From assembly GCF_040419245.1 (NCBI RefSeq), contig NZ_JAZHOH010000001.1, positions 3,968,001-4,032,000 on the forward strand: DNA of 64,000 bases, in the 5' to 3' direction. Both the position numbers and the translations under genes were made by a program. The notes below the pieces were generated by a model. That model searched no databases and was not told where the DNA came from. It saw nothing but the letters and a program-made list of their open reading frames with translations. This stretch comes from Ewingella sp. CoE-038-23 (GTDB lineage: Bacteria > Pseudomonadota > Gammaproteobacteria > Enterobacterales > Enterobacteriaceae). This document shows, piece after piece, positions 10,474-13,755 of the stretch. Within the stretch, counting starts at the first letter, position 1. Every line of letters begins with the position of its first letter.

Positions 10474-13400
10474 ATGAACAAAATATACAAATTAGTCTGG
10501 AATGTGGCCCATGGAGAATGGGTTGTTTGCTCAGAACTGGGTCGCAAGACAAAATTAGGCTCATTGCGTAGTTCATTGATTATTGGTGCTTTACTCTTAT
10601 CTCAAAATGCAATTTCAGCCGAGTGTAGCACGAATGCTAACGGCACGATCACTGTAAATAATTCGATCAATACTGCGGGATGTAGCGTTGAATCTATAGG
10701 CAGTGAAATAGGCAATACTAGTATTTGGAATACCGGTATCCTGCAATATAGTCAGGGAGTCAACCGAAACATCACTATTTTAAATGACTTAAGTTTTACG
10801 ATAAAAGGCAGTGCGGGGATTGCAGTTGGTGGTACTAGCCCAGCCTATGTTTCTACTTTTGATGCTTCAAATAAGACAATAGATCTTACTATAGCTAATC
10901 TTGATACTAATGCCGCTAAACCGGAAGGTGATAATATAGCGAAGGTAGGGGTTGGTTCATCACATGGGGCTACTGTAAAAATAGGAACAATGAACCTAAC
11001 GATGCTGTCTTTACCAAACGGGACATCATATAGCGAGAGATTTGAACATTACGGAGTGGTAGCCGGATCAAGCGTAAATGCGGGTGAACAAGAGAACTTC
11101 AATGGAATGTATTCACGTGCGCTATTTGATAACTTAGATATCAATATGGCCTCTACGAACAATACGGGGTTTTTAGCTAGTTCGTATCCATTGGTCGTTG
11201 GTATCAGGGCTATTCAAGGCGCATCTCGTAACTCGGGGAACGGTGCCGCAGGATATGTGAGTGTATCCGATACACTTAATCTCAATATTAAGAATGGCAA
11301 GAATGATGCTATTGGGATTTACATATCAGGTTCGGAAATTAATAACGTCACCCCTCAGGTACACCTCCATGACAGTAATATAAAGATAGTTAGTAGCTCA
11401 TCTCGCGCTAATGCCATACGGTTAGGTAAAAGTGCTGCGATAGGTACCGGAGAGGGGCAGTTATACTCCAGCGGTAAAATGTTCCTGGATACAACCGAAG
11501 CACCTAATGATGCCAGTATTGATATCATCTGGCAGGGTGCTTTATTAGATGCTAATGAAAATACATCCCGTACTGAAATAAAATCAGGCAAAGAGGCTAT
11601 AACTATTAGCGGTAATGCCAGTCAGGCTACAGCTAAAACAATCACTAATTTTAACAATCTCATCGTGAATAAGACAGGTAACAATGGTTCCGATCTTATT
11701 AATGTTGCCGGTGGGCAGAATTTATACCAGTTGAGTGTGAGAGGGGAAGATAGCAATCTCATTTCTAATAACGGAAAGGATGCCTATATTCTGGATGTGG
11801 CTGGTTCAGCCTCCAGCGCAAGTAACGTTCTTTTCAATTTTTCTCAAGGGAGAATGCAAGGTCTGATCAATACATCTAATGCATCAAAATTGGATGTTAA
11901 TATTGCAGACGATGCGACTTGGCAATTAGAAAAAAATGCCAGTAGTACTACCGCTAGTTTCACTACCTTGAATCTTAACAATTCGTCCCTGATCGCACAT
12001 GACGTTAACAATGGGAATTCGACGGGAAATAATAGTATTTCCTCATTTACTCTCAAGGGTAATGTGCTGGCGAAGAACTCTGAAATAGATATGGCCAATG
12101 GGGTAGCTGGGGACCATCTAACCATCGACGGGAATTTCACTACTGGTGGTAATACATGGCTGATGGACTCGTACCTTACTGGAGAAGGAGTAAGTACCAA
12201 TAATGGAGGGGATGGTAAATCTTATACGGATACTGTCACAATCACTGGTGATACTATTGACCGTGGTTATGATTATGTATGGATTAACAACCTTAACATG
12301 AACAAGCCAACAGGCCAGGAATCACTTGAACTTATAAAGGTCAATGGTCAATCAGATGGCGAGTTTCTGCTGCAGCGCAGGGTTGTAAAAGGGAATTATG
12401 AGTACCTGCTGAATAAACATAGCGATGATGGGGCTTGGTACCTGGAAAGCTTCGCAATGAAAGGTGAAACCGGGGCAACAGGTGAAACCGGGGCAACAGG
12501 TGAAACCGGGGCTACGGGTGAAACCGGGGCTACGGGTGAAACCGGGGCAACAGGTGAAACCGGGGCTACGGGTGAAACCGGGGCAACAGGTGAAACCGGG
12601 GCTACGGGTGAAACCGGGGCAACAGGTGAAACCGGGGCAACAGGTGAAACCGGGGCTACGGGTGAAACCGGGGCAACAGGTGAAACCGGGGCTACGGGTG
12701 AAACCGGGGCTACGGGTGAAACCGGGGCTACGGGTGAAACCGGGGCTACGGGTGAAACCGGGGCAACAGGTGAAACCGGTGCTACGGGCGGAACTGGCGG
12801 CCATACCCCTGTATTACGGCCAGAGAGTGCAAGCTATGCCGCGAATGCCTGGAGTGCTAATCATATGTTTAATATGACGTTGCATGATCGTATTGGTGAA
12901 AGTGGATTAGTGAAAACCACTGCTGAAGATGAATTAGCCTCGTCGCTATGGATTCGCTCAACTGGGAAACGGACAGAAAGTAATAGTTCTGGTCAATTAG
13001 ATACTCGAATTTATGACACTACTATTGAATTAGGTGGCGATATTGCGCGTTGGGATACTAATCAACAACGATATCATTTGGGTCTGATGGCTGGGTACGG
13101 TAATAGTAATAATAAGACAACCTCTTCAGTGACGGATTATCAATCGAAAGGGAAACTTTCAGGCTATAGCGTTGGTATGTATCTCACTTGGTTCGAGAAT
13201 GCCCTTGATAATTCAGGATGGTATACCGACAGTTGGTTACGCTGGAATGACTTTAATGCCAGTGTCTCGGGAGATCAGTTATCTAAAGAGGACTATAAGC
13301 TTCGTGGCATTACTGGTTCTCTTGAATCTGGTTATGCATGGCGTGTAGCTGGCAATGATAAAACCAGTTTCTGGCTGACTCCACAGGCCCAGGTTACCTA

Positions 13401-13755
13401 TTTAGGTGTTACCTCAAATGATTTCACTGAAAAAACAGGTACTAATATTAAAGGAAACAAAGATGCGGTTGAATCTCGTCTGGGTGTACGGGCCAGTACT
13501 ACGACCCATACAAGCGGGACCTTCATTCAGCCGTATGTTGAGCTTAACTACAGGAACTTAAACCGTTTACAAAGTCCAAATCTTGATGGACAACGTGCAG
13601 CGGCTATAGGTGGTAAAAATTCGTTCGAAACGAAAGCAGGGGTTGAAACAACAATTAGCGATAATACCAGACTTTGGGCTAATGTTTCCTATGTAACAGG
13701 AAATAAGGATTTCAATTCATATCAAGGGATGATTGGTATTAACGTTAAGTTTTAA
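10474..13755 (+). CDS. AIDA-type autotransporter adhesin with collagen-like GETGAT linker
   Basis: 1093 residues, type Va secretion. Residues 1-49 form an extended signal peptide ([22 protein letters not shown], then a hydrophobic core ending AISA). Residues ~50-600 are a repetitive Asn/Ser/Thr-rich passenger of beta-helix character. Residues ~590-655 match the autochaperone region ([37 protein letters not shown]). Residues 664-771 are 18 perfect GETGAT units, followed by GGTGGHTPV. From [19 protein letters not shown] onward comes the beta-barrel domain ([22 protein letters not shown]), ending in Phe. In relatives the linker at this point is short or Pro-rich. Probable surface adhesin. A LuxR-EAL pair follows on the same strand. 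Confidence 0.93.
12463..12786 (+). repeat. 18 tandem copies of an 18-bp unit encoding GETGAT
   Basis: Each unit is GGTGAAACCGGG plus either GCAACA or GCTACG (last unit slightly varied). All 18 encode Gly-Glu-Thr-Gly-Ala-Thr, so copy-number change keeps the frame. The two synonymous variants alternate in an irregular order (a a t t a t a t a a t a t t t t a t), the pattern left by unequal exchange. Gly at every third residue is the collagen triple-helix pattern. Confidence 0.97.

Follow-up and report, generated by a model that had tools for sequence, protein, structure and literature searches.

The window analyzed here, a 64,000-nucleotide stretch of the Ewingella sp. CoE-038-23 genome, carries on a mobile island an intact open reading frame (ORF) for a type Va (AIDA-type) autotransporter whose passenger and β-barrel are separated by 36 perfect Gly-X-Thr triplets. 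The same island encodes a glycosyltransferase (GT), 7 kb downstream of the autotransporter and on the opposite strand. We propose, as a probable reading, that this classical type Va autotransporter has a length-variable (Gly-X-Thr)n stalk that serves as the acceptor track for the island GT, a dedicated cytoplasmic enzyme of the GT2-TPR type. The main features, in window positions, are as follows.

4655..22089, no strand: mobile island with the autotransporter and GT genes (blastn against Escherichia coli 1218KP)
10474..13755, plus strand: type Va (AIDA-type) autotransporter gene, 1093 amino acids (aa), intact ORF (ORF list; Pfam ESPR, Collagen, and Autotransporter; NCBIfam autotrans_barl, E 2.1e-74; AIDA-I barrel fold)
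10474..10575, plus strand: extended signal peptide region (ESPR), aa 1-34 (PF13018 above cut-off, E 1.3e-9)
10621..12453, plus strand: passenger, modeled as a β-strand solenoid, ~aa 50-660, with an autochaperone-like region at its end (AlphaFold2; PF18883 in relatives)
12463..12786, plus strand: (Gly-X-Thr)36 linker, (GETGAT)18, a length-variable tandem array, aa 664-771 (Tandem Repeats Finder; unit analysis)
12820..12864, plus strand: predicted pore helix, aa 783-797 (AlphaFold2 model)
12934..13749, plus strand: β-barrel translocator, aa 821-1092 (PF03797; AlphaFold2 model; Foldseek)
20828..22003, minus strand: GT2 and TPR glycosyltransferase, 391 aa, the proposed linker-modifying enzyme (Pfam; identity to a plasmid GT; SunS/ThuS fold)

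A preliminary description of this DNA had recognized a complete AIDA-type architecture, and its signal, passenger, and barrel were borne out by Pfam and by the structural model. In addition to the ESPR, Pfam assigned Collagen at aa 664-721 (E 2.9e-16) and the autotransporter barrel at aa 825-1071 (E 7.3e-36), while NCBIfam grouped the C terminus with barrels of the MisL, AIDA-I, and ECSE_1600 type at scores far under the cut-offs. The single-chain AlphaFold2 model (mean predicted local distance difference test [pLDDT] score of 80) placed a strand-rich solenoid, mostly of high pLDDT, at ~aa 50-660, a pore helix at aa 783-797, and barrel strands over aa 821-1092; the top Foldseek match of the predicted barrel was the AIDA-I transport unit (4mee; TM score of 0.89 by target), and Antigen 43 was among the weaker matches. 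The autochaperone of the earlier description was found less directly. PF18883 did not match the 1093-aa protein at E<=0.1, but it matched the same region in close relatives (L027, aa 534-650; P0007), and the model of the window protein is strand-rich there. A trimeric (type Vc) autotransporter was ruled out, as the Pfam scan gave no match to the YadA-type anchor PF03895 at E<=0.1; no trimerization domain was matched in that scan either. PF03797 barrels are regarded as monomeric. On the features tested, namely, the barrel, the Sec signal with its ESPR, and the predicted β-helical passenger, membership in type Va holds.

The preliminary description had also reported that the usual short linker was replaced by a 108-residue perfect Gly-X-Y array, and Tandem Repeats Finder, the Pfam Collagen match, and unit analysis all confirmed this. 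The array consists of 18 units of 18 bp, giving 36 uninterrupted Gly-X-Thr triplets between passenger and barrel, as expected of a collagen-like sequence. Tandem Repeats Finder reported 18.0 copies with 92% matches and a score of 522, and because of this score a chance run can be ruled out. Where two synonymous unit variants had been described, three are present (A, B, and C, the last occurring once, as the final unit), arranged as AABBABABAABABBBBAC. The collagen-like models of NCBIfam (Scl and Lcl) matched below their cut-offs, and BclA was among the weaker sequence matches in the PDB. X is Glu or Ala (18 each), and Y is Thr in all 36 triplets. The array contains no proline, so a triple helix formed by it would probably depend on glycans. 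In the single-chain model, the linker (~aa 665-775) had a pLDDT of ~30 and no confident structure, which is uninformative on one chain versus three.

The length of the array varies between near-identical genes, as had been anticipated, with 14, 15, 16, and 18 units observed. The copy in E. coli 1218KP (L005) has 14 units rather than the 18 of the window, with zero nucleotide differences in the 1989 bp before and the 957 bp after the array. The gene of Yersinia artesiana (L145, found through L017) has 16 units and is identical to the window gene outside the array. E. coli TC24 (L007) and AREA_C483 (L006) have 15 and 14 units, respectively, and are identical in the flanks compared (800 and 1100 bp upstream and 969 bp downstream). 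The differences among the unit strings AABBABABAABABBBBAC, AABBABABAABABAC, and ABBABABAABABAC consist of blocks of complete units. These unit counts rest on assemblies, of which those of AREA_C483 and TC24 are labeled complete genomes. Judged from these alignments, the array is a fast variable-number tandem repeat (VNTR) that changes length while the rest of the gene stays unchanged. In TC24 and AREA_C483, the gene is interrupted by an IS5-type element (ISKpn26) at ~nucleotide 1160 and ~nucleotide 365, respectively (L007, 2642-4932; L006, 3440-4853); an intact gene is seemingly not needed in these two strains.

The genes reside on an island that is common to the window and E. coli 1218KP, with blocks at 4655-12746, 12535-16779, and 19579-22089 that are 99.67 to 99.96% identical at the DNA level by blastn. 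The housekeeping malFG region is only 76 to 77% identical to that of E. coli and 74 to 79% identical to that of Y. artesiana, which indicates recent transfer of the island between genera. The autotransporter gene gave a megablast match in 3 of 5426 complete E. coli genomes; in 2 of these, the match covers 80% or more of the gene at a single site. More distant relatives are found on plasmids: 6 of 72,556 plasmid records cover at least 80% of the query, at 53.5 to 53.6% identity, and their linkers comprise 41, 27, 3, 51, 41, and 49 triplets. Unbroken runs of Gly at every third position extend to 36 triplets in the window and to 96 in Tatumella.

Relatives with a linker at the same place retain Thr at Y while X drifts (mostly Ala, Pro, Ser, Asp, and Glu). 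Counted over runs bounded by unbroken Gly, with L010 and P0006 left out, Thr occupied Y in 26/27 to 50/51 triplets of the plasmid group (five records), in which the last triplet alone deviates, and in 16/16 triplets of P0007, 93/96 in Tatumella, 19/21 in Psychrobacter, 9/10 in Acinetobacter, and 8/8 in Paracoccus. For comparison, the excerpted text of a review of bacterial collagens gives Thr at Y as 31.6% over all of them and 48.3% in Gram-positive bacteria (PMC8968730). Among 30 collagen loci from a 394-genome order sample, Y composition, taken from one strand, was obtained for 18, and Thr made up 0 to 45% in 17 of these; the exception, L114, has one of the three frames with at least five consecutive Gly-X-Thr triplets [(GXT)>=5] in the 30 loci (the others are L131, 60 aa, and L139, 110 aa), and its frame runs antisense to a 695-aa frame. 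Since proline is absent here and varies in share among lineages, the conserved features seem to be Gly and Thr and not the imino acids that favor a triple helix.

Such linkers proved rare but recurrent. A search for Gly-X-Y linkers ahead of type Va barrels had been named beforehand as one whose outcome would count against the preliminary description if they were common; GXT linkers were present in 5 of the 45 barrel-bearing relatives among the matches listed (P0003-P0007), and the suggestion that collagen-like linkers are ordinary in type Va proteins was rejected on this count. P0033 was not counted, as its three-triplet run lies within the passenger. The sister proteins P0010 and P0011 have ordinary Pro-rich linkers at the same place. 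GXT-linker autotransporters were also present in Tatumella, Psychrobacter, Morganella, Acinetobacter, and Paracoccus, each adjoining a GT gene; all five were found via the GT.

The island GT has a GT2 domain (PF00535) followed by TPR (PF13181, just over its cut-off), which is the domain order (GT-A and then TPR) of SgtA. Its closest solved folds are SunS and ThuS, at 18 to 20% sequence identity. The substrates of SunS/ThuS and of GmaR are bacteriocin peptides and flagellin, which are not collagen-like. With these domains and folds, the island GT is not of the bacterial autotransporter heptosyltransferase (BAHT) type, a negative that covers the island and not enzymes encoded in the rest of the genome. 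It is 44% identical to the plasmid GT that adjoins a GXT autotransporter, and in 6 of 6 plasmid autotransporter relatives the next gene is a glycosyltransferase. When plasmids were searched with the GT, 17 records matched at E<=1e-20; the six at >=99% identity were exactly the six autotransporter records, and the other 11 were below 60%. No GT was present in the stretches examined at nine plasmid control loci (ten barrel frames without GXT linkers), which we picked from 20 listed rows among 726 matching plasmid records.

Linkage of this GT family to (GXT)n genes extended well beyond plasmids. A GT alignment run against 84,980 species genomes yielded 199 confirmed relatives, and the best 80, from 79 loci, were analyzed further. 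Of these 79 loci, 29 include a pure (GXT)>=5 reading frame, and in 25 of those 29 the frame is no more than 500 bp from the GT. When, as a control, the place of the GT was given to a randomly drawn non-GT gene (250 aa or longer) of that locus, such proximity was seen in a mean of 1.4 and a maximum of 5 loci (10,000 draws), compared with the observed 24 of 28 usable loci; overall, 8 of 175 non-GT genes of that size were equally close to a GXT frame. A greedy-ORF count, which undercounts owing to antisense frames, gave GXT in 21 of 153 adjacent versus 7 of 912 nonadjacent frames (Fisher P = 2.8e-13). The neighbors include type Va autotransporters (L018, L026, L027, L028, and L035), a BapA-like protein (L019), an ESPR collagen (L036), an LPXTG streptococcal protein (L043), and small collagens (L061 and L077). 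In a GT tree of 47 rows, which drew on 45 of the 79 loci together with the plasmid GT and that of the window, the type Va-linked enzymes required at least three label changes, so the pairing of GT and type Va autotransporter is not confined to one clade. In the 394-genome order sample, the GT occurred in 4 genomes and Pfam collagen occurred in 100, with all 4 GT genomes among those 100: one is that of the window, one (L140) has a 1570-aa GAT protein 168 bp from the GT, one (L142) has an array 12 kb away, and one (L143) has arrays on another contig. In L140 (5552-6740), the GT next to the GAT-repeat protein is split over two overlapping frames.

Two further groups of neighbors were observed. 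In Haemophilus (L034 and L038; GT at 10001-11047), the neighbor ~200 bp from the GT is a YadA-type collagen-like protein in L034 and a collagen-rich frame in L038; the L034 protein has mixed Gly-X-Y repeats and falls outside the 29 pure-GXT loci. From this proximity, some trimeric autotransporters may be glycosylated on their collagen parts. In Streptococcus cristatus and a relative (L042-L047), GPT-rich surface proteins, with an LPXTG anchor shown for L043, lie ~120 bp from the GT, and run length differs between strains.

Because the island GT shares the layout of SgtA and the same kind of neighbor, we propose cytoplasmic O-glycosylation of the linker Thr residues followed by ordinary type Va secretion. 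While the linker is still unfolded and not yet exported by Sec, the GT would glycosylate its Thr residues; the chain would then be exported, and the barrel would insert as in AIDA-I, judging from the family. The glycosylated linker would remain between the pore helix and the β-helix passenger, keeping the passenger off the membrane, with a calculated reach of ~31 to 33 nm for 108 residues at 2.9 to 3.1 Å per residue, 3.1 Å being the upper value used. The value of 2.9 Å is that given in the excerpted text cited above (PMC8968730). Through gain or loss of 18-bp units, the length of the stalk and the number of its glycans would change at a higher rate than the remainder of the gene; the length part of this is apparent from the strain comparison. 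A single extended chain would suffice, and assembly of three chains would not be required. The preliminary description had offered "stalk or glycan carrier" as one option for the repeat, and this part fits best, given the linkage between arrays of this kind and a protein glycosyltransferase of the GT2-TPR type; it had treated the repeat as generic collagen, however, and had missed both the Thr at Y and the island GT.

Several observations weigh against this proposal. The island GT lies 7 kb away on the other strand and forms no operon with the autotransporter. No pure (GXT)>=5 frame was present in the stretch examined at 50 of the 79 GT loci, among them Psychrobacter L020, L024, L025, and L031, which have the GT with no such gene nearby; some of the 50 have mixed Gly-X-Y repeats near the GT (L029, L034, L038, L041, L048, L080, and L095). 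Nine of these 50 genomes were checked, and 3 had no collagen match at all and 6 had one; in 3 of the 9, a pure GXT array lay outside the stretch (61, 67, and 11 triplets), and because the 67-triplet genome is that of L142, it does not count independently. In a second order sample, the GT was present in 2 of 194 genomes and collagen was present in one of the two; G403 had none. The plasmid relative L010 keeps its GT though its linker is down to 3 triplets. These GT loci without GXT genes, together with L010, suggest that the GT may act in trans or have other substrates as well. Finally, the GT was the route by which the 79 loci and the five genera named above were found, and to that extent the linkage does not start from the autotransporter.

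It seems unlikely, in our estimation, that the linker assembles at the cell surface into a genuine collagen triple helix that ties together three monomeric type Va barrels, with the GT, if it acts, stabilizing the helix. The unbroken Gly-every-third runs (up to 36 triplets here and 96 in Tatumella) and the presence of the same GT family beside trimeric or wall-anchored collagen-like proteins (YadA-type L034 and LPXTG L043) speak for it, and glycosylated Thr at Y is known to stabilize the triple helix in a worm cuticle collagen. However, without Pro in 36 triplets the intrinsic stability should be low, and PF03797 barrels are taken as monomeric and no trimerization domain was matched. A related and slightly more doubtful account is one of glycosylation-gated oligomerization, in which GT-added glycans on the Y-position Thr residues would enable three adjacent type Va proteins, each monomeric, to twist their linkers together, once secreted, as a collagen triple helix, with the VNTR setting the length and stability of the joint stalk. 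If this were so, the GT and SgtA would belong to a widespread bacterial "collagen Thr-glycosyltransferase" family with (GXT)n neighbors in Pseudomonadota, Bacillota, and Chlamydiota.

The repeat could instead be a flexible spacer that carries no modification and lengthened by slippage, comparable to the Pro-rich linkers of other autotransporters, with the GT linked to it through hitchhiking on the island. This would accord with the ordinary Pro-rich linkers at the same place in P0010 and P0011, with the wide range of plasmid linkers (3 to 51 triplets), and with the lack of linker structure in the model. We consider it improbable, because Thr at Y is kept while X drifts in autotransporters whose GTs span at least three branches and because the GT recurs as a neighbor in hosts and protein types that are unrelated, far more often than in the control. 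We give little credence to the idea that the GT modifies the β-helix passenger or another protein and not the linker. Passenger glycosylation by a neighboring enzyme is established for AIDA-I (AAH) and TibA (TibC) in the excerpted text of a report on these enzymes (PMC4358343), and the GT persists beside the 3-triplet linker of L010; but the feature that GT neighbors have in common is the GXT array and not the passenger (they include LPXTG and BapA-like proteins, small collagens, and autotransporters), and the island GT has the GT2 and TPR domains and is not of the heptosyltransferase type. The Gly-X-X repeat might also fold back on itself as a single-chain polyglycine-II bundle, a compact rod formed without trimerization. 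Such bundles require Gly at every third residue, as is found here, but the array shows complete regularity and lacks turn segments that would separate such strands, and its length shifts by whole 18-bp units, so the bundle register would break; we regard this as scarcely credible.

The autotransporter gene is followed on the island by genes that may bear on its regulation.

14019..14639, plus strand: LuxR-type (GerE) regulator, possibly of the autotransporter's unit (PF00196; in the three E. coli copies, a regulator gene likewise comes after the autotransporter)
14632..15921, plus strand: EAL-domain protein, cyclic di-GMP (c-di-GMP) phosphodiesterase family (PF00563, E 9.9e-37)
18372..19103, plus strand: PilZ/YcgR-like protein (PF07238, E 1.3e-4; YcgR model, E 5.2e-8, below its cut-off)

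Together, this LuxR-type, EAL, and PilZ/YcgR-like set (14019-19103) is similar in content to MrkHIJ, the c-di-GMP set that goes with type 3 fimbriae in Klebsiella. E. coli 1218KP retains the LuxR and EAL genes; the PilZ gene is not annotated there. Elsewhere in the window, a 50-bp direct repeat in three perfect copies (23213-23366) lies in a transposase-rich stretch, and acidic (Asp/Glu) codon repeats occur at 443-499 within a 566-aa ORF at 14-1714. The genome that contains the window has a second collagen-like frame (G000:C1:2379840-2380355; L003, L128, and L144) of 525 aa with GVDGKD repeats, in which Y is mostly Asp; this frame, the sole other collagen match in that genome, has no Thr runs and shows no link to the autotransporter system.

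If the proposed acceptor-track reading is correct, it would add a second route of autotransporter glycosylation to that of the heptosyltransferases, and the stalk would be a mobile, length-tunable glycoprotein moving between genera. The locus offers a testable system, in which a single acceptor sequence is defined, a single enzyme is the candidate, and stalk length is all that distinguishes the natural alleles, and it makes the question of linker-driven trimerization of a type Va protein directly answerable. It also points to a general rule whereby bacterial collagen-like proteins are modified by GT2-TPR enzymes whose genes adjoin (GXT)n genes.

Among known collagen-like proteins, Scl, BclA, and Lcl are stalks of anchored trimers. 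The window protein resembles them in its Pfam and NCBIfam collagen matches (NCBIfam Scl and Lcl below cut-offs) and differs in that Y is 100% Thr, there is no Pro, and the stalk precedes a monomer-type barrel. A search of the open-licence literature (without subscription journals or preprints), judged by title and abstract start, listed no type Va autotransporter with a collagen-like linker among its matches; the portions seen of PMC10224339 and PMC10303873 concern other collagen-like proteins and trimeric adhesins. Collagen-like autotransporters have already been published for the trimeric class, and the combination of a type Va protein, a GXT linker, and a GT2-TPR enzyme was not met among the matches listed in the literature searched. 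The VtaA proteins of Haemophilus (Glaesserella) parasuis, as presented in part of one report (PMC6755704), are autotransporter adhesins with collagen-like repeats, but they are of the trimeric class and carry the repeats centrally in the passenger, whereas the window protein has a PF03797 anchor and no YadA anchor match.

The closest parallel for the enzyme is Clostridioides difficile SgtA, which, in the excerpted text of the report (PMC7157674), O-GlcNAcylates Thr of the BclA3 collagen repeats in vitro and also accepts Ser. There, a Thr-rich collagen repeat stands beside a GT-A and TPR glycosyltransferase; the corresponding two genes here are 7 kb apart on the same island in the window and directly adjacent in the plasmid relatives and in five other genera. 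BclA3 differs, from what that text gives, in being a spore-surface protein with GPT repeats and not an autotransporter, and the island GT is likened to SgtA by domain order and not by direct sequence comparison. On the side of the autotransporter, the nearest counterparts are AIDA-I and TibA with AAH and TibC of the BAHT family, which share with the window system a type Va barrel and a dedicated protein glycosyltransferase encoded nearby. In those systems, according to the excerpt consulted, heptose is placed on passenger Ser residues by a dodecameric BAHT enzyme (PMC4358343), whereas here the proposed acceptor is the Thr of a collagen-like linker and the proposed enzyme is of the GT2-TPR type.

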